This document shows positions 3,001 to 16,067 of a stretch of DNA of 16,067 bases, piece by piece. The stretch's first letter is position 1. Each line of letters opens with the position of its first letter. The notes below the pieces were generated by a model that was given only the letters and a program-made list of their open reading frames with translations, made no database searches and had not been told where the DNA came from. Position numbers and translations under genes: made by a program. The stretch comes from an uncultured Aquincola sp. (GTDB lineage Bacteria; Pseudomonadota; Gammaproteobacteria; Burkholderiales; Burkholderiaceae), in assembly GCA_937883885.1 (NCBI GenBank), contig CAKZXL010000415.1, forward strand, positions 1 to 16,067, in the 5' to 3' direction.

Positions 3001-3573
3001 ATCATCGCGATGACGGCCAACGCCTTCGGCGAAGACCGCGTGGCCTGCCTGGAGGCCGGCATGAACGACCACCTGGCCAAGCCGGTAGACCCGGTGAAGC
3101 TGTACGCCACGCTGCTGCGCTGGCTGCCGCGCCGGCCGCTGATTCCCACGCTGGCGCTGTCGCACGCCGCCACCTCGGCCGACGCGCCCCCGGAGCGCCC
3201 GCTGGACATGCGCCTGGCCGCCATCGAAGGCCTGGACATCACGGTGGCGATGCGCCACATGGGCGACAACCTGCCCGGCCTGGCCCAGGTGCTGCGCCAG
3301 TTTGCCGCCACCTACCAGGCCGGCATGCCCCAGCTGCTGGTGGCCGCCGACCCCCAGGACCCCGCCGCACAGGCCCATGCGCGCCGACAAGCCAGCCACT
3401 CGCTGCGCGGCGCCTGCGCCAGCATCGGCGCGGGCGCGCTGGTGCAGCAGCTGCACGACTTCGAAACCGCCGTGCTGGCGCACGAAGACGAGCCCAGCCT
3501 GCAGCAACGCGGCCAGGCCATCCACCAGCAGGTGCTGGGGCTGGTGGGGGCGATTGGGCGGGAGCTGGTTTAG
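1..3573 (+). CDS. Hybrid sensor histidine kinase, PAS3-HisKA-HATPase-REC-REC-Hpt (5' partial)
   Basis: The frame is open from base 1, so the start lies outside the window. Numbering below is from the first codon seen. Order: helical segment (probable end of a periplasmic sensor), TM about 86-104, PAS1 121-246, coiled linker 247-277, PAS2 278-393 and PAS3 395-510. HisKA follows with SHEIRTPMN and phospho-His 543, then HATPase_c with N-box Asn659, DTGEGI 691-696 and GTGLGLAI 721-728. Receiver 1 has acceptor Asp831 (LIDWRM), receiver 2 has acceptor Asp976 (MDMQMPVMDG), and the C-terminal Hpt has HSLRG with His1133. All phosphorelay residues are present, so the protein should be an active BarA/BvgS-type relay at the inner membrane. 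The final output regulator is not in the window. PAS2 and PAS3 resemble each other (both contain a FAN-x-AY-x-DWFG motif), suggesting domain duplication. Ligand and target genes cannot be told from the sequence. Confidence 0.95.
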   Translation, partial: QGEALLRRAADTLRRVAQTPGEVARVDALLGAVERLRALPATAEPPGDGLVQAQLALHEIHEQLAAIDTQVQAQDRADNQRLSQVFDATLVLSGLLLLGLWSAMLRAERARTQAGDALQASAERWRSTLSALAEAVITVDVDGRVVDCNAAARRLLGGRAAADEGFDPVGQVLSVRWPLQHPGGGPIDPADSPSRRAMSSGQPQRGMVVAADYFGQGQRLYRANAEPLIDGGRVTGAVVTLVDITEQQLASDRLEELVNERTRELQQALAAQREAERFTQDILDAQPTLLAYWGRDLRLRFANRAYLDWFGLRREECIGGTVPEVLGEETLQRQLGSIRRVLDGEPIEMELDMTDPGGRVGHFWVYRLPERRNGEVEGWFFIATNITELVEAKRFTRLVADSVPGVIGYWRMDMTCGFANQAYRDWFGRGPEEVVGMRARDLVSPEAYAAAEPYILRALQGERQDYQRQIVRADGATVDALLSYIPHWVDGQQQGFFVAITDITALRQAQTQLAWLNGQLEARAAQAESATSAKSAFLANMSHEIRTPMNAIIGLTHLMSRDTRDTLQHDRLTKIDGAAKHLLQLINDILDLSKIEAGKMVLEDVEFSVDALVTSAFDLVGDRAREKGLELVLDTDHLPARLRGDPTRLSQALVNLLGNAVKFTDEGWVRLKAELMAEDRRRLQVRFEVADTGEGIALADQARLFHAFEQADASATRRHSGTGLGLAITRHLAELMDGEVGVESSPGQGSRFWFTAWLGRAAEAGDRAAPPLLRGLRALVVDDLPEARQAIEDRLSDFGLEVEGLADGEAALRQVQARMKAGRPYDVFLIDWRMTPLDGIQTLQQLRAMLDDGMPPSILVTAFDEAPMWQEARHAHYDAVLVKPITASALHDALVRVLRPRSEVLTLDGASPSEQEALLRRHHAGQRVLLVEDNAVNQEVAHQLLRAAGLAVETAENGARALALVRHRDYDAILMDMQMPVMDGLEATRAIRAELGRGLPIIAMTANAFGEDRVACLEAGMNDHLAKPVDPVKLYATLLRWLPRRPLIPTLALSHAATSADAPPERPLDMRLAAIEGLDITVAMRHMGDNLPGLAQVLRQFAATYQAGMPQLLVAADPQDPAAQAHARRQASHSLRGACASIGAGALVQQLHDFETAVLAHEDEPSLQQRGQAIHQQVLGLVGAIGRELV

Positions 3574-3630
3574 CGAAGGCAGCCCACGCCGGGCCAGACT
3601 CCGCATGTCGATGGTCGGCTTTCTTCTTTC

Positions 3631-3650
3631 GGGCGGGCGCTCGCCCGCCC
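3631..3650. terminator. Perfect GC inverted repeat, possible hairpin between kinase and hydrolase
   Basis: A 20-base palindrome-like element (9-bp arms GGGCGGGCG/CGCCCGCCC around CT) lies 58 bases after the kinase stop and 20 bases before the hydrolase start. It is preceded by a pyrimidine tract, but no T-run follows it on either strand, so it is not a canonical intrinsic terminator. It could weakly terminate, pause, or protect the kinase mRNA 3' end. This is a structural call only. Confidence 0.35.
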
Positions 3651-3669
3651 TAAGCTGGCCGCCGTTTCC

Positions 3670-4656
3670 ATGGCACATCGGCACCGTACACGCATGCTCA
3701 AAACCCTGGCCTACGCCCTCCTCCTGATCGTCGTGCTGCTCAGCGTCGGCCTGGCCGCGGTCTGGCTTTACCTGCGCACGCCGGACCGCCCCGCGGCCGA
3801 GCTGGAACGCCGATACGCGGGCGCCGACGATCACTTCATCGAACTGCCGGGCGGCCTGCGCCTGCATTACCGCGACCAGGGCGACCGCTTGCGGCCGGTG
3901 CTGGTGCTGCTGCATGGCTATGGCGACTCGTACGCCACCTGGGAAGCCTGGGGCCAGGCGCTGCAGGACCGCTACCGCGTCATCAGCCTGGACCTGCCCG
4001 GCCACGGGCTGAGCGCAGCGCCCGCGGACTACCTGCTGGACGCCGACGCGCTGGCCGCCCTGGTGGTGGATGTGGCCACGCGACTGGGGCTGCCGCCCTT
4101 CGTGCTGGCGGGCAACTCGATGGGCGGCGGCGTGGCCTGGAAGGTGGCGCTGCTGGCGCCCCAGCAGCTGCGTGCGCTGGTGCTGGTGGCCGCAGCGGGC
4201 TGGCCGGCCCCCACCCAGGGGCAAAGCCCCTCGCTGGCTTTCCGGGTGCTGCAGCACCCGATCGGGCGCTGGGTGCTGGCACGCATCGACAACAAGCCCT
4301 TGATCGCCCAGGGCCTGAAGGCCCAGGTCTACGACAAGGGCCTGATCACCGAGGCGGTGGTGCAGCGCTGGGCCGACTACCAGCTGTACCCGGGCCATCG
4401 GCCCATCCTGATGTCGGTACCGCCCGGCAGCCATTCACAGGCCACGGCCGAGAAGCTGGCCGCCATCCGGCTGCCGACGCTGGTGATGCACGGCGAGTAC
4501 GACCCGCTGATCCCGGTGGACAACAGCCGCAAGTTCGCCGCCGCCATTGCCGGTGCGCGGCTGATCACCTATCCCCAGGTGGGCCACCTGCCGCAGCGCG
4601 AGATCCCGGCCCGATCGGCCGCCGACCTGCGCGCCTTCCTGGACACGCTGCCCTGA
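3670..4656 (+). CDS. Membrane-anchored alpha/beta hydrolase
   Basis: 328 residues. A single N-terminal hydrophobic segment (about residues 11-32) looks like an uncleaved signal anchor, placing the catalytic domain in the periplasm or on the membrane. The alpha/beta-hydrolase features are in order: HGYG oxyanion region 82-85, a DLPGHG strand/turn, nucleophile elbow GNSMGG with Ser150, acid Asp278 in HGEYDPLIP, and His306 in VGHLPQ. The complete Ser-Asp-His triad predicts an active hydrolase of the broad esterase/epoxide-hydrolase-like group, but the substrate cannot be named. The start is uncertain: ATG 3670 and ATG 3694 (MLKTLAYA, directly before the hydrophobic segment) are both possible and neither has a clear Shine-Dalgarno. 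It is transcribed toward the TonB receptor, with 24 nt between the two stops. Confidence 0.9.
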   Translation: MAHRHRTRMLKTLAYALLLIVVLLSVGLAAVWLYLRTPDRPAAELERRYAGADDHFIELPGGLRLHYRDQGDRLRPVLVLLHGYGDSYATWEAWGQALQDRYRVISLDLPGHGLSAAPADYLLDADALAALVVDVATRLGLPPFVLAGNSMGGGVAWKVALLAPQQLRALVLVAAAGWPAPTQGQSPSLAFRVLQHPIGRWVLARIDNKPLIAQGLKAQVYDKGLITEAVVQRWADYQLYPGHRPILMSVPPGSHSQATAEKLAAIRLPTLVMHGEYDPLIPVDNSRKFAAAIAGARLITYPQVGHLPQREIPARSAADLRAFLDTLP

Positions 4657-4680
4657 GGGCGCAGCCCGGCCCTGGGGCGC

Positions 4681-6891
4681 TCAGAACTCGTAGCTGAGCG
4701 TGACGCCCACCGTGCGCGGCTGGCCGGCTGCAGCCACGTTCAGGTCGTCCTGGGTGGCGGGGCGGTTGCCGAAGAAGTTGCGCGTCAGGTCGTATCGCCG
4801 GTCGAACAGGTTCTGCACCACCAGGCTGAGCTGCCACGGCGCGCCGGCCTTGGACACTTCGAGTCGTGCATTGGCCAGCCAGTAGGCCGGGATGTCGTAG
4901 ACGTTGCCACCGTCGACATTCAGGCGGTTCAGCCACGACTCGTACTTGCTGCGGTAGCTGTAGTCGCCCGCCAGCTTGAACGCATAGCCCTGGGTGCTCC
5001 AGGCGTAGGAGACGTTGCCGCCATAGCTGAGCTTGGGCAGGAATTGATCGTGGCCCGACAGATCGCCCAGCAGCACCGACTTGAAGTCCTTGAAGGTGGC
5101 GTGCTTGTAGCCAATGGCCTGGCCGATGGTCAGCCCGGCCAGCGGGCGCCACTGCAGCTCCACCTCGCCACCGCGGACCGCGGACCGCGGGATGTTGACG
5201 ATCTTGCCGACCAGGGCCCCGGTGTTGGAGGTGATGACATCCTGGAATTGCTGGTTGCGGTAGTCGTAGTGGAACAGCGCCGCATTCAGGCGCAGCGTGC
5301 GGTTCAGGTCGGCCTTGTAGCCCAGCTCCAGGCTGTTGAGCTTCTCGGGCTGGAAGGCACCCAGCGCCGCCGGATCGAAGGTGTTGTGGGCCGTGATGCC
5401 ACCCGACTTGATGCCGCGGCTCAGCGAGACGTAGACGAGCTGCTCGCGCGCCACCTGGTACTCCAGCGCCAGCTTGCCCGAGGTGTTGCCGGTGTCGAGC
5501 GAGCTGGACAGACCCGTCAGGCCCGAACCCGGGATGTTGGTGAAGGTGGTGCTGAAGTCGCGCAGGCCGCGTTCTTCCTTCTCGCGGCGCAGGCCGGCCA
5601 CCAGCTTGAGGTCAGGCGCCAGCAGGGTGTCGGCCTGACCGAACAGGGCCCAGGTCTTGCCGGACTGCGTGTACTTCGTGCGCGTGATGACGCCGAAGTC
5701 GCGGCGGAAGTCGGTGTACCAATCCTCGTCCAGCTGCTCCTTGGCGTAGTAGGCGCCCAGCACCCAGTTGAACGCAGCGGTCTTGTTGGAGGCCAGTCGC
5801 AGCTCCTGGGTCGTGATGCTGGCCTTGTCCTTCCAGAACACGTCGGAATGGTTGATCGGCGTGCCGTCCCAGTCGCCCAGTTCGCGGCGGTCGAACCGCT
5901 GGTGGCTGCTGATGCTGGTGAGGCGCGTGGCGCCCAGGTCCCAGTTCAGCGTCAGCGCCACCTGGGTGGCGCTGTTGTCGCGCGAAGGGGCGCTGTCCGC
6001 ACCGACGCCGACAAGCGTGGCGAAATCCGGCGCCAGGCCCCAACCGGTCTTGCTGCGGTCGCGGTCGGCGGCATAGCCATAGGACGGGCGGGCGGTGAAC
6101 AGGTACAGGCCGGCCACGTCCGACTTGTCGACGTTGTGCGACAGGCTCAGATGGGCCTTCAGGTCGCGCGTGACGTCCAGTTCCAGCTGGCCGCGCAAGG
6201 CCACGATGTTCTTGTCGCCCAGCTTGGCACCGGTGAGGCGGTTGCTCTGCCAGGCGCCGCCCTGCTCGGTGGCCAGCGAGAGGCGGCCCCGCAGGCTCTC
6301 GCTCAAAGGGCCGGACAGATAGCCCTGGGCCGACCTGGCCTGGTTCGACCCATAGCCGAGTGAAAAGCCGCCCTCCCGGGTCTGGGTCGGTTTGCGGGTG
6401 AGCAGGTTGATGGCACCGCCGGTGGTGTTCTTGCCGTACAGCGTGCCCTGCGGGCCGCGCAGCACCTCCACACGCTCCAGGTCGAACAGCAGTCCCTGGG
6501 TTTGCACCGGATAGCCGAAGGCCACCTCGTCGACGTAGAGGCTGACGGCCGACGCGTTGTTGCTGCCGTAGTCCTGGAAGCCGATGCCGCGGATGCGGAA
6601 CTGCGGCTGTCCGCTGCCGAAGGCCGGCTCAATTTCCAGACTGGGCAGCTCGTTCTGCAGCTTGTTGACGTTGGTGACGCCGCGCGCCGCCAGCTCGTCA
6701 CCGGACAGCACGCTGATGGCCACGCCCACGCTCTGCACCGATTCCACGCGGCGTTGCGCCGTGACCTCCACCCGCTCCAGCGCGGCTGGCGCGTCGGGCG
6801 TCTGCGCCGCCGCCAAACTGCTGACCAGCCAGGCCACGCCGGCTGACACTGCCTTCAATTCACGCTGCTGCTTGCGCATCACTCGACCCAT
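4681..6891 (-). CDS. TonB-dependent outer-membrane receptor
   Basis: 736 residues, a normal length. Signal peptide to about residue 29 (ends SLAAAQ), followed by a TonB-box-like ERVEVTAQRR. The plug domain includes the diagnostic VEVLRGPQGTLYGKNTTGG stretch at about residues 139-157. A long beta-barrel follows, ending GVTLSYEF with the C-terminal Phe required for BamA-dependent assembly. There is no STN domain, so it probably does not signal through a FecR/FecI-type pathway. It should import a scarce ligand with TonB-ExbB-ExbD energy. No periplasmic binding protein, ABC transporter or siderophore gene adjoins it, so the substrate is open (siderophore, heme, B12, glycan or aromatic). ATG 6891 and ATG 6879 (MRKQQREL) both precede the same signal peptide. 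The upstream gap is 111 bases. Confidence 0.93.
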   Translation of the reverse strand: MGRVMRKQQRELKAVSAGVAWLVSSLAAAQTPDAPAALERVEVTAQRRVESVQSVGVAISVLSGDELAARGVTNVNKLQNELPSLEIEPAFGSGQPQFRIRGIGFQDYGSNNASAVSLYVDEVAFGYPVQTQGLLFDLERVEVLRGPQGTLYGKNTTGGAINLLTRKPTQTREGGFSLGYGSNQARSAQGYLSGPLSESLRGRLSLATEQGGAWQSNRLTGAKLGDKNIVALRGQLELDVTRDLKAHLSLSHNVDKSDVAGLYLFTARPSYGYAADRDRSKTGWGLAPDFATLVGVGADSAPSRDNSATQVALTLNWDLGATRLTSISSHQRFDRRELGDWDGTPINHSDVFWKDKASITTQELRLASNKTAAFNWVLGAYYAKEQLDEDWYTDFRRDFGVITRTKYTQSGKTWALFGQADTLLAPDLKLVAGLRREKEERGLRDFSTTFTNIPGSGLTGLSSSLDTGNTSGKLALEYQVAREQLVYVSLSRGIKSGGITAHNTFDPAALGAFQPEKLNSLELGYKADLNRTLRLNAALFHYDYRNQQFQDVITSNTGALVGKIVNIPRSAVRGGEVELQWRPLAGLTIGQAIGYKHATFKDFKSVLLGDLSGHDQFLPKLSYGGNVSYAWSTQGYAFKLAGDYSYRSKYESWLNRLNVDGGNVYDIPAYWLANARLEVSKAGAPWQLSLVVQNLFDRRYDLTRNFFGNRPATQDDLNVAAAGQPRTVGVTLSYEF

Positions 6892-7002
6892 TCGACGTAC
6901 CCGATGTCAGAAGGAGCCGATGGGCCCGGTCACCGCGGGAACACCGGCCTGCTGCGCCAAAGTCTATGGGTCGGGCGCGCGGGTGCCGAGTGAGAAAACA
7001 GG

Positions 7003-7446
7003 CTATCGATATGCAGCGGGTGAAGAGGGCGCCACCGACGCCGGCAAACCGAACACGCGGTCGAAGGCCCAGGTGAAGACCACCGCATAAACGAAGAAGA
7101 AGGCCAGCACACCCAGGTCCGCCACGAAGGCGTGCAGCAGGGTCGTGTTGAGCCACCAGGCCATGACGGGCACCAGCGTGATCACCAGACCCCCTTCAAA
7201 ACCGAGGCCATGGGCCAGACGGCGCCGCCAGGTGCGGCCCTTGACGGCCTGCCTGGACTCCCAACGCTCGAACCACCCATTGAAGACGTAGTTCCATGCC
7301 ACTGCCACGGTCGACATGAAGACCGCCAGGCCCACCGTCGATGCCAAGGACTCCGAAAAAATCAGTCCCAGCGCAGGCCCCACGACAGCCACCGCAATGA
7401 CTTCATAAAGACCTGCTTGTACGAGGCGTCTGGTTCGTGGGCTCAT
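7003..7446 (-). CDS. PACE-family (AceI-like) multidrug/biocide efflux protein
   Basis: 147 residues, close to the usual PACE size of about 140-150, with four hydrophobic segments arranged as two transmembrane pairs. Family-type motifs are visible: Glu15 in the first helix (YEVI; Glu15 is the proton-coupling residue in Acinetobacter AceI), WNYVFNGWFERWE at the end of TM2, RLAHGLGFEGGL at TM3, and FDRVFGLP near the C-terminus. Characterised members export chlorhexidine and related biocides or short diamines by proton antiport; the natural substrate here is unknown. GC is lower than the neighbours (roughly 55-65% in sampled lines against over 70%), hinting at separate acquisition. The LysR regulator that often sits next to aceI is absent. 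No good Shine-Dalgarno precedes the ATG. Confidence 0.88.
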   Translation of the reverse strand: MSPRTRRLVQAGLYEVIAVAVVGPALGLIFSESLASTVGLAVFMSTVAVAWNYVFNGWFERWESRQAVKGRTWRRRLAHGLGFEGGLVITLVPVMAWWLNTTLLHAFVADLGVLAFFFVYAVVFTWAFDRVFGLPASVAPSSPAAYR

Positions 7447-7470
7447 GTCAATGTTCAGTCCGGATAGCCG

Positions 7471-7484
7471 CCTGCAAACGCAGG
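7471..7484. promoter_or_regulatory. Small inverted repeat in the leader of the PACE gene
   Basis: CCTGC-AAAC-GCAGG forms a perfect 5-bp stem with a 4-base loop, 25 bases upstream of the PACE start. It would fold in the 5' leader of that mRNA. No T-run follows it, so it is not a terminator. The function is unknown and chance occurrence is possible. Confidence 0.25.
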
Positions 7485-7494
7485 TTCAATGCAA

Positions 7495-7512
7495 TTGATC
7501 AGCAACGATCAA
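7495..7512. promoter_or_regulatory. Perfect inverted repeat, candidate operator of the PACE gene
   Basis: TTGATC-N6-GATCAA is a perfect dyad about 50 bases upstream of the PACE start, in a roughly 50% GC intergenic patch. It fits a dimeric regulator site. It also contains a T-N11-A spacing as in LysR sites, which would suit an AceR-like regulator encoded elsewhere. No convincing -10 element is placed relative to it, so this is a candidate only. Confidence 0.35.
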
Positions 7513-7599
7513 AAGATGCACCGATAGAGACTACACGCACTGCAGTTGAGCAGACCGCCATTGACATTTCGAAGTGGGCTTCAGAGTTGTCCGCACCGC

Positions 7600-8511
7600 T
7601 CAGCACGAGGAGGCATTGCGATCGACATGTGCCATGGCCCTGCCCACCCGACCTATGCGCACCAGCACCCCCAGCCCCAGCAGCATCAAGGCCCAGCTGG
7701 CCGGCTCAGGCACCGGCGCCAGGAAGTTGGTGCCGCTGACGCCGGTGGTGTTGAGCCCGGCCACCGACGGCGTCAGGCTGTAGGCGGCCGAGTGGTAGAA
7801 GTCGGCCACGCCGCTGCGCGTGGTGGTGGCCGAGCTGTCCACGCTGGCGCCCACGTTCAGGTAGCCGGTGATGCCCAGATCGTGGCCGACCTGGGTGTTC
7901 AGCGTCAGCAGGTACAGGCCGGGGGACTGGCTGGCCGCGTTCCAGCGCAGGCTTACCGTTTCGCGGGTGATCTTGTCTTCCAGCCGCACCTCGGCCGCCC
8001 CGTAAACGCCGACGTGGCCGCCCATCTCGAAGCTGGGGCTGCTGATGCTGCCGTTGATGCGCAGGCCCACGGTGTACTGCACCGGTGTGCCTTCGCTCAG
8101 GCCGGCCCCGGTGACGGCCACGGTGTCGGTGAAGCCGGCGTCCACCGTGGCATTGCTGAAGCCGCTGGTCACCAGCTCGCCGCCGATGGTGCAGCAGTAC
8201 GGGTGGCTGGCCGCGGCATACGCCTTCAGCAGGCCGATGCGGCCCAGGAACTTCACCTCGGCCGTGCCGCCGTTGGAGGTGGTGATGCGGTCGTCCATCA
8301 CCTGCAGCTGGGCGGCGTCGGGGGAGTCGAACAGGGTGAGGTAGGTGGGCCGGCTGTGGTCCTCACGGGGCGCGGGCGAGGTCATCACCGAGGTCACCGT
8401 GGTGGTGACCATCAGCGACGTGTTCTGCGCCCAGGTCTGGGCGGGACCGAGCGCCAGGGCACCGATCAGCGCGCTGGCTGCGGCAAGCCGCGGGGGACGG
8501 AAACAGGACAT
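7600..8511 (-). CDS. PEP-CTERM sorting-domain protein (second of tandem pair)
   Basis: 303 residues from ATG 8511. Signal peptide about 1-29 (ends TWAQ), a beta-rich secreted body, then the C-terminal VPEP signal (267-270), a hydrophobic segment and Arg-containing tail. This is the exosortase sorting tag that is recognised and cleaved at the inner membrane before surface or matrix delivery. The body is clearly paralogous to the upstream gene: shared GRIGLLKAYA, the vicinal cysteines Cys106-Cys107, a PSFE motif, VSLRW, and FYHSA before the tag. I do not recognise the body as a named family. ATG 8511 is chosen because it starts the signal peptide, lies 2 nt after the preceding stop and has GGAGAG upstream. 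The tail after the TM is unusually long (ends NASSC) and its basic cluster is weak. No exosortase gene is in the window. Confidence 0.87.
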   Translation of the reverse strand: MSCFRPPRLAAASALIGALALGPAQTWAQNTSLMVTTTVTSVMTSPAPREDHSRPTYLTLFDSPDAAQLQVMDDRITTSNGGTAEVKFLGRIGLLKAYAAASHPYCCTIGGELVTSGFSNATVDAGFTDTVAVTGAGLSEGTPVQYTVGLRINGSISSPSFEMGGHVGVYGAAEVRLEDKITRETVSLRWNAASQSPGLYLLTLNTQVGHDLGITGYLNVGASVDSSATTTRSGVADFYHSAAYSLTPSVAGLNTTGVSGTNFLAPVPEPASWALMLLGLGVLVRIGRVGRAMAHVDRNASSC

Positions 8512-8513
8512 GG

Positions 8514-9407
8514 TCAGCTCTCCAGGGCGGGGGAAGGAAGCGTGAGGAGGCGGCGCCGGCCGCGCAGCACGGCCAGCGCCCCCAGACCGCTGCACCACAG
8601 CAGGGTGGTTGCGGGTTCAGGCACCGGCGCGAGGAAGTCGGTGCCGCTGGCGCCGATGGTGTTGAGCCCGGCCACCGAGGGCGCCAGGTGGTAGCCGGCC
8701 GAGTGGTAGAAGTCCACCTCGGCATGGCGGCCGATCAGCGCGCCGGCCTCGACATGGGTGTCGGCGAACAGCATGCCCTGGATGGACAGCGTGTGGCCCA
8801 CGGTGGTGGGCAGCGTCAGCGTGTACACGCCGGTGGCCTGCTCGGCCGCGTCCCACTTCAGGCTCACTTCCTGGCCGCTGCTGCTGTCGCGCAGGCGGGC
8901 TTCGGCCATGGCCACCGCATACAGGTTGGCGCCGCTCTCAAAGCTGGGGTGGCTGACCGTGCCGCTGAGCCTGACCACCAGCTGGTAGCTCACCGGCGTA
9001 CCCACGGCCAGGCCGGCGCCGCCCACCAGCACCTCGTCGTAGAAGCTGCCCTGCACCGTGGCATTGGCGCCGCCCAGCAACACCGTGGCGCCTTCGATGC
9101 AGCAGCGGGCGTAGTTGGATTCGGCGTAGGCCTTCAGCAGGCCGATGCGCCCCATGAACAGCGCCGTGGCGTTGCCGTGGTCCGCCGCGGCAACGCTGTC
9201 CAGCCGCTGCAGCGTGCCCGCGCCGGGCTGGTTCAAGAAGTTCAGGTTCTGGGCATCGGTGTCGGTGCTGCCGGGCGCAGGCAGAAAGCTCACGGTGCGG
9301 GCGTTGGCCGTGGCGGTGAGCTGGTAAGTGGCCTGGGCCGACAGCGGCAGCAGTGCCGCCAGCGCCAGGGCGGCGGCAGGGCGAAACAGGGTCGGGCCAA
9401 TGGACAT
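8514..9407 (-). CDS. PEP-CTERM sorting-domain protein (first of tandem pair)
   Basis: 297 residues. Signal peptide 1-26 (ends SAQA), secreted body, VPEP at 262-265, hydrophobic segment and RGRRR basic stop, so a textbook PEP-CTERM tag for exosortase processing. It shares with its downstream paralog GRIGLLKAYA, the double cysteine (Cys102-Cys103), HPSFESG, VSLKW and the FYHSAGY to VPEP region. Asn-rich glycosylation-like sites such as NATVQG are present, but that proves nothing. The start is well supported by AGGAG 6 nt upstream. It is the promoter-proximal gene of a two-gene unit and is divergent from the ECF sigma gene across about 150 bases. Likely role: an exported surface, matrix or biofilm-associated protein. 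The molecular function is not known. Confidence 0.87.
   Translation of the reverse strand: MSIGPTLFRPAAALALAALLPLSAQATYQLTATANARTVSFLPAPGSTDTDAQNLNFLNQPGAGTLQRLDSVAAADHGNATALFMGRIGLLKAYAESNYARCCIEGATVLLGGANATVQGSFYDEVLVGGAGLAVGTPVSYQLVVRLSGTVSHPSFESGANLYAVAMAEARLRDSSSGQEVSLKWDAAEQATGVYTLTLPTTVGHTLSIQGMLFADTHVEAGALIGRHAEVDFYHSAGYHLAPSVAGLNTIGASGTDFLAPVPEPATTLLWCSGLGALAVLRGRRRLLTLPSPALES
8518..8523 (-). promoter_or_regulatory. Shine-Dalgarno of the second PEP-CTERM gene
   Basis: GGAGAG on the minus strand lies 6 nt before ATG 8511 and inside the last codons of the upstream gene. It fixes the start at 8511 rather than the longer frame beginning at 8598, and implies translational coupling of the pair. 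Confidence 0.7.
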
Positions 9408-9559
9408 GGGGGGCTCCTATGACAGTGCAGGGCGGGCGTCGTCTCGACAATCGGTCATCTGCCCAGCCAACGGCGCCGGCCACGCCATCCGGACATGCCG
9501 TGCCCCAAAAAACATGGGGGGTGGCTGCGGCCGGCTCACCGCGTGCGAACATCAAATGC
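9408..9559. promoter_or_regulatory. Divergent intergenic region between PEP-CTERM pair and ECF sigma gene
   Basis: This 152-base segment must hold the start signals of the minus-strand PEP-CTERM unit, and probably those of the plus-strand sigma/kinase unit. No sigma-70 -35/-10 pair stands out on either strand. The only notable composition is an A6 run flanked by C and G runs at 9503-9521. The promoter consensus of this sigma group is not known to me, so no element is marked. Confidence 0.4.
9414..9418 (-). promoter_or_regulatory. Shine-Dalgarno of the first PEP-CTERM gene
   Basis: AGGAG on the minus strand, followed by six C residues and then ATG 9407. It is the strongest ribosome binding site seen in the window. 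Confidence 0.75.
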
Positions 9560-10123
9560 ATGCCGACGCCCGCTCCCCAGGACGCCCCCGATGCCAACGC
9601 CGACGACCAGCCGCCCGCCAGCTGGCAGGCGGCCTACCCCGAGCTGAAGAAGATCGCCCGCGCCCGCCTGCAGGCCGCCGGACCGGGCACGCCCGGGCTC
9701 AACACCACGGCCTTGGTGCACGAGAGCTTTCTGCGCCTGGCCGGCCGCGTCGACACGCTGCACTTCGACAGCCGCGGCCATTTCTATGCCTATGCCGCGC
9801 GGGTGATGCGCTCGGTCATCGTCGACCTGGTGCGCCAGCAGGCCACCGACCGGCGCGGCGGTGGCGCCGCCCATGTGACGCTGGACACCGTGCTGGCCGA
9901 CGGCCTGGCCGGGCCCGACGACGCGGAGGCGCTGCGGGTGGACGAGGCGCTGAGCACCCTGGCCACGGTGGAGCCGCGCCTGGCCCAGGTGGTGGAGATG
10001 CGCTACTTCGCCGGCATGGCCGATGCCGAGATCGCCCAGGTGCTGGGCCTGACCGACCGCACCGTGCGCCGCGACTGGGACAAGGCGCGGCTGCTGCTGC
10101 GCGCGATGTTGAGCCAGCCCTGA
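9560..10123 (+). CDS. ECF-type RNA polymerase sigma factor, Ser/Thr-kinase-associated group (TIGR02999/ECF43-like)
   Basis: 187 residues from ATG 9560. Region sigma-2 spans about 24-100 (LNTTALVHESFLRL, then GHFYAYAARVMRSVIVDLVR), and sigma-4 about 125-185 with an HTH at 152-177 (DAEIAQVLGLTDRTVRRDW). The acidic sigma-2.2 patch of ordinary ECFs (DAED before LVQE) reads Asn48-Thr-Thr-Ala51 before LVHE here. In the Vibrio EcfP/PknT system this kind of sigma is switched on by kinase phosphorylation of a Thr, and the adjacent kinase gene fits that model. There is no anti-sigma gene. The frame stays open back to 9353, but homology-like sequence starts only near Trp22, so ATG 9560 is preferred; GTG 9521 is an alternative. 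The Shine-Dalgarno is poor. The likely role is transcription of a small regulon, perhaps including the divergent PEP-CTERM genes. Confidence 0.9.
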   Translation: MPTPAPQDAPDANADDQPPASWQAAYPELKKIARARLQAAGPGTPGLNTTALVHESFLRLAGRVDTLHFDSRGHFYAYAARVMRSVIVDLVRQQATDRRGGGAAHVTLDTVLADGLAGPDDAEALRVDEALSTLATVEPRLAQVVEMRYFAGMADAEIAQVLGLTDRTVRRDWDKARLLLRAMLSQP

Positions 10124-10167
10124 TGTCCGCTTCGGCCTGCCTGCCCCGTTGGCCGCTGCAGCGATGA
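10123..10167 (+). CDS. 14-codon mini-ORF linking sigma and kinase genes
   Basis: A short frame (MSASACLPRWPLQR) starts at ATG 10123, overlapping the sigma stop as TGATG. It stops with TGA at 10165, overlapping the kinase start as ATGA. It exactly bridges the 40-base gap between the two genes, whose kinase start lacks a clear Shine-Dalgarno. The likely purpose, if real, is translational coupling by terminating and reinitiating ribosomes rather than a functional peptide. It may also be chance: no independent ribosome site is strong. Confidence 0.35.
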   Translation: MSASACLPRWPLQR

Positions 10168-13022
10168 CCGCCCTGCCCTGTCCGCCCGAACACTGGCCCG
10201 CGTTTTCGCGCCGGCTGGATGCCCTGCTGGCGCTGCCCGCCGACCAGCGCGCCGACGCGCTGCAAGCGCTCCCCGCTGAAGAGGCCGTGCTGCGCCCCTG
10301 GCTGGCCGCCGTGCTGGCCCGGCAGGCCGACGCGCTGGCCGACCACTACCTGAGCACGCCGCGCTGGGCACCGGTGGCCGATGACGCGCCGGCGCACCGC
10401 GCGGGCCGGCGCATCGGCCCCTGGCGGCTGCTGCGCGAGCTGGGCCGGGGCGGCATGGGCGTGGTGTGGCTGGCCGAGCGGGCCGACGGCGCCTACACCC
10501 GCCAGGTGGCGCTCAAGCTGCCCCACCTGCACCTGCTGGAAAACCTCAACGCGGCCGGCGTGCGCGCCCGCTTCGCCCGCGAGCGCGACATCCTGGCCGG
10601 GCTGGCGCACCCGCACATCGCACGCTTCTACGACGCCGGTGTCGCCGACGCTGCCGGCCCTGATGGCGAGGCCACTGCCGGCCAGCCCTGGCTGGCGCTG
10701 GAGGCGGTGGAAGGTCTGCCCATCACCGCCTGGTGCCAGCAGCGCGCGCTGCCGCTGGACGCCCGGCTGGCGCTGTTCGACCAGGTGGCCGACGCCGTGG
10801 CCCATGCCCACGGCCGGCTGGTAGCCCACCGCGACCTGAAGCCGGCCAACGTGCTGGTGACGGCCGATGGGCAGGTCAAGCTGCTGGACTTCGGCATCGC
10901 CAAACTGCTGCAGGCCGGTGACGGCGGCGACGCCACCGCCAACGCCGACAGCACCGCCCTGACCCGCGCCCAGGGTGTGCTGGCCACGCCGCGCTATGCC
11001 GCGCCCGAGCAGCTGGCCGGTGGTCCGGTGAGCGTGGCCACCGATGTCTACGCGCTGGGGCTGATGCTGTTCGAGCTGCTGACCGACCAGCCGGCCTTTG
11101 GTGCCGATGCCGCGGGCCGGCAGCACGCGGCCGGCCACGACGAGCCGCCGCAGCCCTCGCGCGTGGCTGCTACACCGGCGCTGCGCCGAGCGCTGGCCGG
11201 CGACCTGGATGCCATCGTCGCGCAGGCACTGCAGCCGGCGCCCGAGGCGCGCTACCCCTCGGTGGCGGCGCTGGCCGACGACCTGCGCCGACACCTCCAG
11301 CATTTGCCGCTGCGGGCGCGCCGGCTCAGCACAGGCCAGCGGCTGGCGCGCTATGTGCGCCGCCACCGGCTGCCGGTGGCGCTGGGCAGCGCCTTGGCCG
11401 CCGTGCTGGTGGTGGGCGTGGCCGGTGTGGCCTGGCAGGCCCATGAGGCGCGCGCCCAGGCCCGCCGTGCCGAGGCGGTGAAGGACTTTCTGCTGGGCGT
11501 GTTCAGCGCCGCCGACCCCCGTGTGGCCGGCGGCAAGCCCGATGGCCAGACCACCGCCAAGACCCTGCTCGACCGCAGCGCCGCCCGCATCGACGCGCAG
11601 TTCACCCACGACCCCGAGCTGCGCATCGAGCTGCTGCGCACCGCCGCCGACATCTACCGCGAGCTGGGCGAAGACGCCGCCTACGAAGCCCTGCAGCAGC
11701 GCCAGCTGGCCCTGGTGCTGCAGCACCACGGCCCGCTGCATCCCAACGTACTGGAAGGCCAGCTGGAAGCCGCCATGCGCGCCTACGGCCGTGGTGACCT
11801 GGCCGCCTGCCGCCAGCAGCTGGCGGTGGCCGACGAGGGCCTGCGCCGCGCCGGCCGCGACCGCGACCCGCTGCGCGCCCACTGGTGGACCACGCGCGGC
11901 ATCTGCCTGCGCGACCAGCCCGACCAGGCCGACGCCCGGCTGCAGGCCCTGAAGCGCGGCTCCACGCTGTCCGCCGAGGTGGAGCCCGGCGGCCGTGGCC
12001 ACGTCACGGCCCTGGCCGAGCTGGCCACCGAGCACAGCACCCAGGGCCGGCAGACCGAGGCCATCGCCACCAACCGCCAGGCCATCGCCATGGCCCAAGC
12101 GCTGCCGCAGCGCAACGAGGCCGAACTGCAGACGCTGTACGGCAACCTGGGCCTGGCCCTGCAGCAAAACGGCGACCTGGACGCCGCCGCCGCAGCCTAC
12201 GGCCAGGCCGCCGACATCGCCGAGCGCACCAGTGGCACCGATTTTTCGGTGGCCTGGCTGCCCCGCGCCAAGCATGCACGCACGCTGCACCTGGCCGGGC
12301 GGCGGGCCGAAGCAAAGCCGCTGTTCGACCGCCTGCTGGCGCAGATCGGCGAGCGCAGCGACCTGCCCGATGCCCACGTGGTGCGCGAGGACGCCGGTGA
12401 ACGCCTGGCCGCCGAGGGCCGCGCCGCGCAAGGGCTGCCCTTGCTGCTGCAGGCCCAGGCCGCCTACCGGCGCACCGCGCAGTACGACTTCGACCAACGC
12501 CGGGTGCAACGCCACATCGGCGACGCCCTGGCCCGCCTGGGCCGCCACGAAGAAGCCCTGGCCACGCTGCGCAGCGCCATGGCCGCCTTCGAGGCGGCCG
12601 ACCCGCCCGGCCGGCAGTCCACCGCGGCCTGCCGCGAGCGCCTGGGCCGGCTGCTGCTGGACATGGGCCGGCCCGAAGAAGCGCAGCAGCAACTGCAGCG
12701 CGTGGTCGACGAAGCCGCCGTCAAGACCTGGAGCCACGTGGCCCTGGCCCAGGCCGGCCTGGCCCGCGCTGCGCTGGCCCGTGGTGCCCTACCGGAAGCA
12801 CAAGCCCTGAGCCAGCAGGCCCTGGACACCTGGGACCGGCTGACCGGCTTTCGCGACGTGCGCATGCAGGCCTACCTGTGGCGCGTACGCGCCGCGGTGC
12901 TGGCTGCGGCCGGCGACATCCCCGGCGCCCAGGCCCTGCGCGACCGCGCCCTGGCCGCCGCCCGCCGCACTGATGCGCCGGACAGCCCGACGGTCTTGCA
13001 GCCGGGGGTGGTGGGGTTGTGA
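10164..13022 (+). CDS. Transmembrane Ser/Thr protein kinase with TPR-like C-terminal region
   Basis: 952 residues from ATG 10164. A helical N-terminal extension (about 6-60) is followed by a Hanks-type kinase domain, about 88-365. Its motifs are Gly loop GRGGMGVV (94-101), Lys118 in VALKLP, HRDLKPAN with Asp224, DFG 242-244, and TPRYAAPEQ as the P+1/APE region. All catalytic residues are present, so an active kinase is expected. TM is about 403-424, with basic residues on both sides. The C-terminal ~530 residues hold TPR-like helical pairs (clear around 616-690 and 786-840), probably periplasmic and sensory by analogy with PknS/PknT-type kinases. It directly follows the sigma gene, its likely substrate. 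A TTG at 10149 in frame is less likely than this ATG, which overlaps the mini-ORF stop. It converges on the hydrolase gene. Confidence 0.93.
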   Translation: MTALPCPPEHWPAFSRRLDALLALPADQRADALQALPAEEAVLRPWLAAVLARQADALADHYLSTPRWAPVADDAPAHRAGRRIGPWRLLRELGRGGMGVVWLAERADGAYTRQVALKLPHLHLLENLNAAGVRARFARERDILAGLAHPHIARFYDAGVADAAGPDGEATAGQPWLALEAVEGLPITAWCQQRALPLDARLALFDQVADAVAHAHGRLVAHRDLKPANVLVTADGQVKLLDFGIAKLLQAGDGGDATANADSTALTRAQGVLATPRYAAPEQLAGGPVSVATDVYALGLMLFELLTDQPAFGADAAGRQHAAGHDEPPQPSRVAATPALRRALAGDLDAIVAQALQPAPEARYPSVAALADDLRRHLQHLPLRARRLSTGQRLARYVRRHRLPVALGSALAAVLVVGVAGVAWQAHEARAQARRAEAVKDFLLGVFSAADPRVAGGKPDGQTTAKTLLDRSAARIDAQFTHDPELRIELLRTAADIYRELGEDAAYEALQQRQLALVLQHHGPLHPNVLEGQLEAAMRAYGRGDLAACRQQLAVADEGLRRAGRDRDPLRAHWWTTRGICLRDQPDQADARLQALKRGSTLSAEVEPGGRGHVTALAELATEHSTQGRQTEAIATNRQAIAMAQALPQRNEAELQTLYGNLGLALQQNGDLDAAAAAYGQAADIAERTSGTDFSVAWLPRAKHARTLHLAGRRAEAKPLFDRLLAQIGERSDLPDAHVVREDAGERLAAEGRAAQGLPLLLQAQAAYRRTAQYDFDQRRVQRHIGDALARLGRHEEALATLRSAMAAFEAADPPGRQSTAACRERLGRLLLDMGRPEEAQQQLQRVVDEAAVKTWSHVALAQAGLARAALARGALPEAQALSQQALDTWDRLTGFRDVRMQAYLWRVRAAVLAAAGDIPGAQALRDRALAAARRTDAPDSPTVLQPGVVGL

Positions 13023-13044
13023 GGGCCCACGCTCGTCGTGCCCG

Positions 13045-13701
13045 CTAAGAAGGCGAGGGTTCGGCGCTGCGGCCGACGCGCCGAATGATCTCGGTGGCGA
13101 CGCACTGGCTGGCGGGCAGCCAGGAGTGGAACACCGGCACCTCCAGCTGAGATTCGAACCAGGGTGCAGAGACTTCCGAGACCGAGACGATGCCGTCGTT
13201 GGGTTCGCCCCGGAACGGCGACTGCTTCCAGGTGATGCCTTTTGTGCCGATGATGGCGGTGGTCGGCGCATCGATGGCGCCGATGGCGGACATGCGTGCC
13301 GGCGACGCGAGCAGCTGCCCGCAGTCGCCTGTCGCGAGCCGGAAGACCAGGTTGCCAGACAGCCTTGAAGCCCAACGCGAAGCCGCGATGGGCGACCCCA
13401 GCAGGAACGCCCGCGTGGGCTGCTTGGCCTTGCACGCGGAGGGAGCCAGCGCGGCACGCAGCAATACGCCGCCCAACGAATGGCCGATCACGATGTAGTC
13501 CCCGCGATCGGCGATGTCGTTCAGCCGCACCGACAGACGCCGAACCACTGACGCGAAGTCCTCCACTGCGGCCGAATAGCCGAAGGTTTGGACCTGGATG
13601 CCCACGCGCCCGAGCTGCCGCAGCATCGGCCAGCCCGACAGGGGCGATCGGCCCATGCCGTGGACGAAGAGCGCGATCAAGCGTCTGCCCTCACCCCCCA
13701 T
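13045..13701 (-). CDS. Small alpha/beta hydrolase (lipase/PGAP1-like)
   Basis: 218 residues with no signal peptide, so probably cytoplasmic. FVHGMGRSP (12-20) is the oxyanion-side loop, GHSLGG carries nucleophile Ser75, NDGIVSV gives acid Asp169, and FHSWLP gives His192. The order and the DGIV...H spacing match the lipase/PGAP1-like branch of alpha/beta hydrolases. The triad is complete and the substrate unknown. ATG 13701 lies inside the last codons of the SHMT gene (11-nt overlap), so translation is likely coupled and it would be the last gene of a SulP-SHMT-hydrolase operon. GC is slightly lower than the SHMT gene. A lower-likelihood alternative is a general serine esterase with no link to the operon. 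Confidence 0.8.
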   Translation of the reverse strand: MGGEGRRLIALFVHGMGRSPLSGWPMLRQLGRVGIQVQTFGYSAAVEDFASVVRRLSVRLNDIADRGDYIVIGHSLGGVLLRAALAPSACKAKQPTRAFLLGSPIAASRWASRLSGNLVFRLATGDCGQLLASPARMSAIGAIDAPTTAIIGTKGITWKQSPFRGEPNDGIVSVSEVSAPWFESQLEVPVFHSWLPASQCVATEIIRRVGRSAEPSPS

Positions 13702-14977
13702 AAATCGGAAACCGCCGCGTCATCGCCCTCACCTGCTCGGCCACCGCCATTTCGGTCGCGGTGTTGTCGTGCGGCTTCGCGGCCAAGCCGGCCAGCACCT
13801 GCGCCACCCAGTCGCCCACCTGCTCGAACTCGGCGGTGCCGAAGCCGCGGGTGGTGCTGCCGCTGACGCCGAAGCGCAGGCCCGACATCACCTTGAGGTC
13901 GGCGGTGTCGGAGGGGATGGGGTTGGCATTGGCGATCAGGCCGGCGCGTTCCAGGCTGTGGGCGGCCGGGGCGCCGGTCAGGCCCTGCGGGCGCAGGTCG
14001 ACCAGCATCAGCGGGGTGTCGGTGCCGCCGCCCACCAGGTGGTGGCCGTGCTGCTGCAAGCGGGCGGCCAGCGCGCGGGCGTTGGCCAGCACGGCGGCGG
14101 CGTGGGCCTTGAACTCAGGCCGCAGCGCTTCGCCCAGCGCCACCGCCTTGCCCGCGACGATGTGCAGGAAAGGCGTGCCCTGCAGGCCCGGGAACACCGC
14201 GTTGTTGATGGGCTTGCTCAGCGCCTCGTCGTTCCACAGCACGATGGCGCCACGCGGCCCGCGCAGCGACTTGTAGGTGGTGGTGGTCACGATGTCGGCG
14301 TGCGGAAACGGGTCGGCATGCGCGCCGCCCGCCACCAGGCCGGCGAAGTGGGCCATGTCGACCAGCAGGCGCGCGCCGGCCGCATCGGCCGCGCGGCGGA
14401 AGGCCTCGAAGTCCAGCGCGCGGGCATAGGCCGAGCCACCGGCAATCACCAGCTTGGGCCGGTGGCGGCGGGCCAGGTCGATCACCTGGTCGTAGTCGAT
14501 CAGGCCGCTGTCCGGCTGCACGCCGTAGTTCACCACCTGGAACCAGCGGCCGCTGAAGTTGGCCGCCGCGCCATGGCTCAGGTGGCCGCCGGCATTGAGG
14601 TCCATCGCCAGGATGGTGTCGCCCGGCTGCGCCACCGCATGCAGCACCGCATGGTTGGCCTGGCTGCCCGAGTGCGGCTGCACATTGGCAAAGCGGCAGC
14701 CGAAGAGCTGGCAGGCCCGCTCGATGGCGGCGCGCTCCACCGCGTCCACATGGGCAGCGCCGGCGTGGTAGCGCTTGCCGGGGTAACCCTCCACCGTCTT
14801 GTTGGTGAGGATGGAGCCCTGCACCTCCAGCACCGCGCGGCTGACGATGTTCTCGGAGGCGATGAGTTCGATCACCTCCTGCTGGCGCCGCAGCTCCTGC
14901 GCAATGGCCTCGGCGATCAGCGGATCGGTCTGCGCCACGGGGGCATCGAAGTAGCCGGGGTGCACGGTGAGGCTCAT
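13691..14977 (-). CDS. Serine hydroxymethyltransferase family protein (GlyA-like paralog, altered active site)
   Basis: 428 residues (E. coli GlyA has 417), a PLP fold-type I enzyme, cytoplasmic. Conserved features: ELIASEN, EGYPGKRY with Glu63, GGHLSHG, LLVDMAHFAGLVA, PLP lysine Lys236 in TTTTYKSLRGPRG, and SGLR substrate-carboxylate Arg. Compared with E. coli GlyA recalled from memory, Tyr55 is Thr61, Tyr65 is His71, and His228 before the lysine is Tyr235. The usual PF-x-TSGIR-x-GTPA region is also changed to DLKVMSGLRFGVSGSTTRG. It therefore may not be the housekeeping enzyme: options include alpha-methylserine hydroxymethyltransferase or another aldolase-like activity. ATG 14977 is preferred over TTG 14980 because GGAG lies 7 nt upstream. 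It is 22 nt downstream of the SulP gene. Confidence 0.88.
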   Translation of the reverse strand: MSLTVHPGYFDAPVAQTDPLIAEAIAQELRRQQEVIELIASENIVSRAVLEVQGSILTNKTVEGYPGKRYHAGAAHVDAVERAAIERACQLFGCRFANVQPHSGSQANHAVLHAVAQPGDTILAMDLNAGGHLSHGAAANFSGRWFQVVNYGVQPDSGLIDYDQVIDLARRHRPKLVIAGGSAYARALDFEAFRRAADAAGARLLVDMAHFAGLVAGGAHADPFPHADIVTTTTYKSLRGPRGAIVLWNDEALSKPINNAVFPGLQGTPFLHIVAGKAVALGEALRPEFKAHAAAVLANARALAARLQQHGHHLVGGGTDTPLMLVDLRPQGLTGAPAAHSLERAGLIANANPIPSDTADLKVMSGLRFGVSGSTTRGFGTAEFEQVGDWVAQVLAGLAAKPHDNTATEMAVAEQVRAMTRRFPIYGG

Positions 14978-14984
14978 CAATCAA

Positions 14985-14988
14985 CTCC
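14985..14988 (-). promoter_or_regulatory. Shine-Dalgarno deciding the SHMT start
   Basis: GGAG on the minus strand is 7 nt before ATG 14977 and only 4 nt before the alternative TTG 14980. Spacing favours the ATG. Confidence 0.6.
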
Positions 14989-14999
14989 GTCAGTGAGAA

Positions 15000-16067
15000 C
15001 TAGATGCCGTCTCCAGCCGAGGTTCCAGGCCGCGGCGGGCAGTCGAAGAAGATGCGCACATTGCAGCGCGCGCAGATGTCCGGGTCCAGCCGCGGCACGA
15101 TGTCGGCCAGCGCGCTGCGCTTGTCCTTGTACAAGTGGTCTTCGCCCAGCCGCTGCAAAAAGCCGGTGGTCTGCCAGGCTTCGACGACCGGCGGCCGCGG
15201 CCGGTGGAAGTACAGGTCGCCGCCCATCGCGCGGCGGGCGGCCAGCTCGTCCTGCCACAGCTCGGCGCCAGCCAGGTCGATGAAGTTCATGCTCTTGCTC
15301 ATCACCAGCAGGTGGCGCGGCGCATCGGGGCCGCGGCGCAGCTCGTGCAGGCGGTCGGCCACATGGGCTGTGGCGCCGAAGTACACCGAGCCTTCCATGC
15401 GCAGCAGCTTGAGCTGCGGGCACTCGGGCAGCGTGCCGGGCGGGTGGCCGTCGATCACCACGAAGGCCCGGTCGTGGGCGCTGGGCTGGTCGAAGCCCAT
15501 GGTGCGCATCGCCGGGCGCGAGGTGCGGTACAAGAAGCTCACCAGCGACAGCATGGTGCCCAGCAAGATGGCCACTTCCAGCCGCAGCGTCACCGTGGCC
15601 AGCAGCGTGGCGGCGGCAATCGCAAACTCGCTGCGGCTCACCTGCCACAGCCGCTGCCAGCGCGGCAGGTCGAACAAGCCCCAGGCCACCAGCAGCAGCA
15701 GGCCGGCAATGGCCGCCATCGGAATCAGCGCCAGCAGCGGCGCACTGAAGGCCACCAGCAGCACCAGCAAGCCGGCCGAGAACACCGCCGCCATCGGCGT
15801 GCGGGCGCCGGCTTCCAGGTTGGGCATCGATCGGTTGAGCGAGCCGCAGGACACATAGCTCGACGAGAAGCTGCCCACGATGTTGGACAGCCCCTGGCCG
15901 ATGAACTCGCGGTTGGCGTCGATGCGCTGGCCGCTGCGCACCGCCACCGCCTTGGCGATGGAAAACGACTGCCCCAGCGCCACGATGGTGAGCGCAAAGG
16001 CCAGGCCGGCCAGCTCGGGCACCTGGCTCCACGACACCTGCGGCACCGTGAGCGGCGGCCAGGCCGA
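15000..16067 (-). CDS. SulP-family anion transporter with STAS domain (5' partial)
   Basis: The frame runs open off the right edge, so the N-terminal half is missing; 355 residues are seen. The fragment has the late membrane helices (ALTIVALGQSFSIAKAV; then two pairs around 95-195) and the SulP signature-like SLNRSMPNLEAGARTPMAA. A cytoplasmic STAS domain lies at about 220-320 (LLRMEGSVYFGATAHV; LLVMSKSMNFIDLAGAE). The C-terminus has a Cys-containing tail, CARCNVRIFFDC. Family members exchange or symport sulfate, bicarbonate, chloride or dicarboxylates; which anion cannot be told here. It is the most upstream visible gene of an apparent operon with the SHMT paralog and the small hydrolase. 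The GTG at 16046 is not a credible start because conserved membrane sequence precedes it. Confidence 0.9.
   Translation of the reverse strand, partial: SAWPPLTVPQVSWSQVPELAGLAFALTIVALGQSFSIAKAVAVRSGQRIDANREFIGQGLSNIVGSFSSSYVSCGSLNRSMPNLEAGARTPMAAVFSAGLLVLLVAFSAPLLALIPMAAIAGLLLLVAWGLFDLPRWQRLWQVSRSEFAIAAATLLATVTLRLEVAILLGTMLSLVSFLYRTSRPAMRTMGFDQPSAHDRAFVVIDGHPPGTLPECPQLKLLRMEGSVYFGATAHVADRLHELRRGPDAPRHLLVMSKSMNFIDLAGAELWQDELAARRAMGGDLYFHRPRPPVVEAWQTTGFLQRLGEDHLYKDKRSALADIVPRLDPDICARCNVRIFFDCPPRPGTSAGDGI

Follow-up and report, generated by a model that had tools for sequence, protein, structure and literature searches.

The closest described relatives of the regulatory genes analyzed here are two pairs of an extracytoplasmic function (ECF) sigma factor of group ECF43 and a transmembrane Ser/Thr kinase. 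Our pair lies in a stretch of 16,067 nucleotides from an uncultured Aquincola species (contig CAKZXL010000415.1; the whole stretch is called the window below), divergent from two tandem PEP-CTERM genes. EcfP of Vibrio is missing the acidic DAED residues of sigma2.2; its motif there is STTA, and PknT phosphorylates the second Thr (PMC8999054). In Xanthomonas, PknS phosphorylates EcfK both at T51, which is the same position, and in the linker (PMC13147305). In ECF43, the DxxD acids of sigma2.2 are replaced, with a QTTA consensus (88%) and Thr at the position of EcfK T51 (PMC13147305). PEP-CTERM genes have themselves been tied to sigma-54: Haft et al. report a sigma-54 site, with a link to PrsK/PrsR/PrsT, for 99 of 167 proteobacterial genes (PMC1569441), and in Aquincola tertiaricarbonis RN12, an environmental strain open to transposon and plasmid genetics, pepA depends on RpoN1 and its start has been mapped (PMC9850573). 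Floc formation in a close relative involves a PEP-CTERM protein (PMC9850573). Here and below, these four papers are cited from excerpts. In the literature found, from a search with most subscription papers outside it, regulation of PEP-CTERM genes involves sigma-54/PrsK/PrsR only, with no link to an ECF sigma factor or Ser/Thr kinase.

The window resembles EcfP-PknT of V. parahaemolyticus in a sigma2.2 without acidic residues, the pattern S/N-T-T-A, and a neighboring transmembrane Ser/Thr kinase (PMC8999054). The EcfP regulon is polymyxin resistance, whereas the predicted targets in the window are the PEP-CTERM genes and the kinase gene. With EcfK-PknS of X. citri the window shares the kinase architecture (N-terminal extension, Hanks kinase, transmembrane segment, and tetratricopeptide repeats, TPRs, that are predicted to be periplasmic in the window kinase too), and the best match of the window kinase in the PDB is X. 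citri PknS (9EED, 1.7e-45 over residues 19-378, N-terminal extension included). Unlike the window system, EcfK-PknS runs a type VI secretion system, and its motif is QATE instead of NTTA. The PrsK/PrsR/sigma-54 system likewise acts on a PEP-CTERM gene, pepA of A. tertiaricarbonis RN12, within the same group of exosortase-bearing bacteria, but it uses a histidine kinase, a response regulator and a -24/-12 promoter, where the window has a Ser/Thr kinase, an ECF sigma factor and -35/-10 boxes. The sigma-kinase part is of a known, ECF43-like kind; the apparent novelty lies in its target and promoter, in the feedback on the kinase, and in the split into two sigma types.

A predicted promoter that accompanies the sigma factor gene

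A predicted ECF-type promoter stands ahead of the PEP-CTERM operon at 21/21 related loci with sigma and kinase genes nearby and at 0/9 loci without a sigma gene within ~10 kb, where the best match has at least three mismatches; operons starting with another PEP-CTERM gene are also counted. The original prediction proposed a regulatory link from adjacency only, and the sequence comparison now supports it strongly. A shared promoter motif, for which it suggested a search, is present at these operons.

The first protein of the pair (P0003) has 114 relatives, the named ones in Aquincola, Aquabacterium, Roseateles, Paucibacter and Pelomonas, plus two Rubrivivax loci; the nearest named relative is from A. 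tertiaricarbonis (89% identity). A family profile (A1), run on 399 genomes of the family around Rubrivivax pictus (G001) at E <= 1e-12, had a match in 19/399 genomes, full length in 16. G002 was added to the locus set outside the profile search, and the genera of G308, G298 and G299 supplied 15 new loci, for a total of 33 loci with the window. Sigma and kinase are nearby in 21/33 family loci, with the kinase present in the window and at 20 further sigma loci (first set: window, L001, L031, L033, L036-L041, L048; later set: L148, L150-L152, L166-L170). G113 is counted with sigma; its family gene is in L042, and its sigma and kinase are ~14 kb off, in L080. At nine loci (L030, L032, L034, L035, L043, L044, L165, L171, L172) the sigma is absent within ~10 kb either side, and the contigs of L149, L155 and L156 are too short to judge its presence.

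Among the 16 genomes with a full-length member, nine have the sigma within 10 kb, compared with 0.12 expected by chance, a rough expectation because at most eight sigma candidates were scored per genome. With a profile of the type A sigmas (defined below), sigmas reach 295-333 bits in 6/399 genomes (at most eight candidates per genome), and all six carry the PEP-CTERM family. Exosortase (PF09721) was found in 27/27 related genomes searched.

Side by side, the divergent regions have a single invariant piece, TGTCCGG, 16 bases and CGTTGG, directed at the PEP-CTERM genes. In the window its -35 is at 9495-9489 and its -10 at 9472-9467, 59 nt ahead of the PEP-CTERM ATG. A scan gave exact copies of this type A site in the window, L001, L037, L039, L040 and L042, which has two; the L031 copy has one mismatch. 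The PEP-CTERM genes and sigma of L001 do not face each other, and there the site precedes the PEP-CTERM genes and not the sigma. Five same-strand loci of the first set are without a type A site; common to them is TGGCCGG-N16-CGTAYG ahead of the PEP-CTERM genes. There are seven exact type B sites (TGGCCGG-N16-CGTAYGT) in 17 genomes, every one at these loci.

Both motifs were fixed before the later loci were fetched, and the scan of those allowed spacers of 15-17. The cognate promoter was present at 9/9 new loci with sigma and kinase: exact type A in L150, L151, L152 and L166 (spacer 16) and in L167-L169 (spacer 17), and one mismatch in L170 (type A) and L148 (type B). The G113 promoter was detected before its distant sigma was located, and L149 and L156, short contigs with no sigma in sight, have an exact type A site. 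Random 330-bp pieces of the same loci gave a match with at most one mismatch in 24/4000 (type A) and 14/4000 (type B), true sites included.

Downstream of the 23 sites ahead of operons, the automatically chosen first long frame carries a terminal PEP-type tag in 20 cases; the tags of L033 and L038 have SEP and AEP instead of PEP. The remaining three are L039 with a variant tag (VPAP), L149, where another frame was picked, and L156 (G487:C273), where the family gene is broken by an in-frame TAG. In L037 (G298), the family gene and the next PEP-CTERM gene downstream of the promoter at 10178 (minus strand) form one frame of 632 amino acids with a single terminal tag. A second PEP-CTERM family leads the operon in L001 (8331-8993), L041 and L048, and its L048 member matches PF21114, a discoidin-like domain.

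The syntenic loci L170 and L171 (80-82% identity on both flanks) differ in the sigma and its promoter together. The kinase and sigma block of L170 (10512-13387), which has the same order in L169, is replaced by ~50 bp in L171, and the L171 promoter has decayed to TTTCCCT, a shortened spacer and CGTTGT, with its surroundings kept (CCCCCTAACTTGA before, TAGAGTCGAG after). This pair is compatible with either loss, of sigma or of promoter, having come first.

A plain sigma-70 promoter, which the original prediction had entertained as a contrary outcome, did not appear: 7300-13100 gave no sigma-70-like promoter. Upstream of the sigma, a conserved TGCGAACAT is present at window 9544-9552 and in L001 and L031, a few bases ahead of the ATG and without an obvious ribosome site. 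It is perhaps an extended -10, with a sigma message that has almost no leader.

Gene order and sigma types

The genes are divergent at 10/21 loci (window, L031, L037, L039, L040, L150, L151, L152, L166, and L001, where other genes intervene). Sigma, kinase and PEP-CTERM genes follow each other on one strand at 6/21 (L033, L036, L038, L041, L048, L148), and at 4/21 (L167-L170) the PEP-CTERM gene and kinase share a strand with the sigma convergent. In G113 the PEP-CTERM gene is far from the sigma-kinase pair. With three main arrangements in addition to G113, it is the promoter that is conserved and not the head-to-head layout. Of the divergent arrangement, whose conservation the original prediction suggested checking, the association of sigma and kinase with the PEP-CTERM operon is conserved and the layout is not.

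The sigmas of L033, L036, L038, L041, L048 and L148 form a separate clade, type B (support 1.00 in a quick FastTree tree). Sigma type and -10 covary: type A occurs with CGTTGG and type B with CGTAYG. Thr-Thr is present in sigma2.2 of 15/15 type A sigmas and of the related G304 sigma (L112); L037 and L170 have Asp at the first motif position.

The genes and features of the window

Profile matches bear out the original prediction of an ECF sigma factor and a transmembrane Ser/Thr kinase divergent from a tandem PEP-CTERM pair (Table 1). The sigma scores 157 bits with TIGR02999, 'ECF-type sigma factor' (cut-off 126), and 6e-40 with PF07638; both are broader than ECF43. Its start is uncertain, with the reading frame open upstream as far as an ATG at 9419. 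The Thr50 codon (9707-9709) aligns with the EcfP phospho-Thr position, a comparison taken from PMC8999054.

The kinase matches Pkinase (4.4e-34, residues 89-364) and contains GRGGMG, HRDLKPAN, DFG and APE, in agreement with the PknS/PknT-type set GxGGMG, HRDxKxxN, DFG and APE. The strongest hydrophobic stretch begins at residue 405 (transmembrane segment ~405-423), and the TPRs past residue 600 are predicted to be extracytoplasmic.

P0003 and the second paralog, P0002, both match PF07589 above cut-off, with a C-terminal PEP motif, hydrophobic helix and basic tail. They are 47% identical across 251 residues, and P0002 is presumably on the same transcript. A structure model of P0003 predicts a beta-sandwich and a C-terminal helix (265-288) at the PEP-CTERM tag. 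Pfam recognizes nothing but the sorting tag in either protein, and the NCBIfam PEP-CTERM families are all below cut-off save the general tag model TIGR02595. A Pfam scan found no anti-sigma among the ten window proteins, although no search aimed at anti-sigma genes was made. In the flanks (1-7446 and 13045-16067) we saw nothing connected with these genes.

Table 1. Coordinates of the predicted features in the window
Feature	Position	Strand	Basis
Predicted ECF promoter of the PEP-CTERM pair, TGTCCGG-N16-CGTTGG	9467..9495	-	Side-by-side reading of divergent regions
Inverted repeat just upstream of -35, minus strand CCCCCCATGTTTTTTGGGG	9503..9521	.	Sequence
ECF43-like sigma factor, 187 aa from ATG at 9560	9560..10123	+	TIGR02999, PF07638
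Sigma2.2 motif Asn48-Thr49-Thr50-Ala51 (NTTA)	9701..9712	+	Comparison with PMC8999054 (excerpts)
Predicted kinase-gene promoter, TGTCCGC-N16-CGTTGG (1 mismatch)	10124..10152	+	Motif scan
Transmembrane Ser/Thr kinase with C-terminal TPRs, 952 aa	10164..13022	+	Pkinase, TPRs
First PEP-CTERM paralog (P0003), 297 aa	8514..9407	-	PF07589
Second PEP-CTERM paralog (P0002), 303 aa, 2 bp behind first	7600..8511	-	PF07589
Hybrid sensor kinase with receivers	1-3573		By eye
Hydrolase	3670-4656		Pfam
TonB receptor	4681-6891		Pfam
PACE efflux pump	7003-7446		Pfam
Hydrolase-like frame	13045-13701		Pfam
Serine hydroxymethyltransferase	13691-14980		Pfam
SulP transporter	15000-16046		Pfam

The kinase-gene promoter and other predicted targets

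The predicted promoter of the kinase gene begins directly behind the sigma stop codon, with 11 nt separating its -10 from the kinase ATG. The sigma-kinase junction carries such a copy, with one mismatch at most, in 9/11 type A loci of sigma-then-kinase order (window, L031, L001, L040, L080, L150, L151, L152, L166) and in 4/6 type B loci (L033, L036, L038, L048), where the -10 ends 8 nt before the kinase ATG. At these distances, the kinase mRNA may have almost no leader. In L167-L170, where the kinase gene comes after the PEP-CTERM gene, one promoter could serve both.

The 18 genomes searched contain 26 exact type A sites. Family loci account for 11 of these, G308:C23 for three, and G113 for an additional, second one; G304 has one, at 8 kb from its sigma. 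The remaining 10 lie elsewhere, compared with nine in a reversed control. The groups in G308:C23 and G113 look like real targets. In G308:C23 (L079 8724-11726), the three sites stand 30-36 nt before genes for a CsgG-family lipoprotein, a 99-amino acid protein and a papain-family protease. By eye, the latter two begin with signal-like sequences. The 20-kb piece L079 itself contains neither a sigma nor a kinase of the sort described here. In G113:C1 (L080 1-8000 and L042), five promoter copies, two of them exact, occur in a 16-kb island. Besides the sigma, the kinase and the PEP-CTERM protein, the island encodes a CsgG-family lipoprotein and two proteins that combine a signal-like N-terminus with a DWGG or NWG stretch.

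A second upstream element

In 15/23 promoters the 50 bp upstream of the -35 include CCCC[CT]A, a sequence present in 0.7% of random 50-mers. In the window the element falls in the inverted repeat at 9503-9521. Its distance from the -35 is 22-26 bp in 11, 14 in three and 33 in one, and the two main positions are about one helical turn apart, as for an activator. Related boxes (CCCCCAA...CTAGGGG, CTAGGGG, CCCCTAA) stand ahead of 6/9 members without sigma (L030, L032, L034, L043, L165, L171). The element and these boxes make at least one further regulator likely.

Proposed switch and alternative explanations

We consider it very probable, from the sequence comparison, that the kinase and sigma form a dedicated phospho-sigma switch that turns on PEP-CTERM surface proteins. 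The promoter, its pairing with sigma type, and the gene neighborhood are shown by the comparison of loci. The kinase would detect a signal outside the cytoplasm via its TPR part and phosphorylate the sigma at Thr50 of sigma2.2. This region is without the acidic residues that, judging from EcfP and EcfK, would be needed for RNA polymerase binding. The charged sigma would then read TGTCCGG-N16-CGTTGG ahead of the PEP-CTERM pair, whose products may be exported by exosortase. It would also read the second copy at the kinase gene, giving positive feedback on the kinase and not on the sigma.

Several observations count against this proposal. The P value of 7e-8 for 21/21 versus 0/9 is only indicative because the loci are related, with kinship uncorrected; the L040 and L152 promoters are identical. 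PEP-CTERM genes without nearby sigma or promoter in 9/33 loci imply that the family can be run otherwise. In the six scored genomes from these loci, no sigma exceeds 209 bits against the type A profile; because type B sigmas score only 150-180 with it, this result speaks to type A sigmas only. Among sigmas above 235 bits, the next best after the type A set (G304, 259.5 bits) has a kinase in a genome without a family member. A good kinase promoter copy is missing in L037, L039 (-10 only), L041 and L148.

Genome-wide, the motifs are not enriched: with at most one mismatch there are 1-11 type A matches per genome compared with 16-39 in the reversed control, and 0-7 type B matches compared with 4-24, all counted in the genomes of relatives. 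With counts below the control, weak sites elsewhere are meaningless, and the predicted regulon appears small and local. The expectation of a motif at other PEP-CTERM genes in the genome thus did not hold.

The alternative that survives best, which we rate as somewhat unlikely, keeps the sigma as the driver of the PEP-CTERM genes and lets the kinase work by another route (the linker, as for EcfK T106, or a further partner), with Thr50 not the switch. EcfK T51A still works in X. citri, whereas T106 is needed (PMC13147305). The type B sigmas also point this way: they have Glu (L033, L038, L041, L048, L148) or Gln (L036) at the phospho-Thr position, yet the kinase adjoins the sigma in 6/6 loci. 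Read from sequence, the type B Glu is a natural phosphomimic at the EcfP/EcfK phospho-Thr position. Together with the functional T51A, it suggests that Thr50 may not be the sole or decisive site. Against this alternative, the type A sigmas all keep Thr-Thr, as does EcfP, whose single phosphosite is that Thr (PMC8999054). The phospho-switch proposed from the outset therefore fits the sigma type of the window and fits type B less well.

It is very improbable that sigma-54 and PrsK/PrsR control the pair, with the adjacent sigma and kinase incidental. The RpoN1-dependent pepA of the nearest named relative and the survey of Haft et al. favor such control, but the best match to the sigma-54 -24/-12 consensus (TGGCACG-N4-TTGC) ahead of the PEP-CTERM genes has 3-4 mismatches (three in the window), as do most random pieces, and it is the ECF-type promoter that goes with the sigma gene. 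The idea that TGTCCGG...CGTTGG is an ordinary transcription factor site and that the sigma serves other genes draws on the CCCC[CT]A element and its counterparts at members without sigma, but it is hardly credible for boxes that have no dyad, are oriented toward the gene with a 16-17 nt spacer, end 36-59 nt ahead of the ATG (14 type A loci), vary with sigma type, and have decayed where there is no sigma gene.

Beyond the phospho-sigma switch itself, a wider model is tentative, and we would put it at rather below even. It describes a sigma branch devoted to exosortase substrates that may run in two modes with the same wiring, type A as a phospho-Thr switch and type B with the permanent charge of Glu, where the kinase would act elsewhere or merely report. 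Kinase feedback would give bistable commitment to a PEP-CTERM surface state, to which some genomes may add a CsgG-type exporter and a secreted papain-like protease, and a second regulator would act at CCCC[CT]A.

Significance

PEP-CTERM proteins are widespread. If true, a Ser/Thr-kinase switch would give PEP-CTERM genes a testable input, a promoter and a short target list. The Glu that type B sigmas naturally have in place of the phospho-Thr may also provide a test of the EcfP charge model without engineering.

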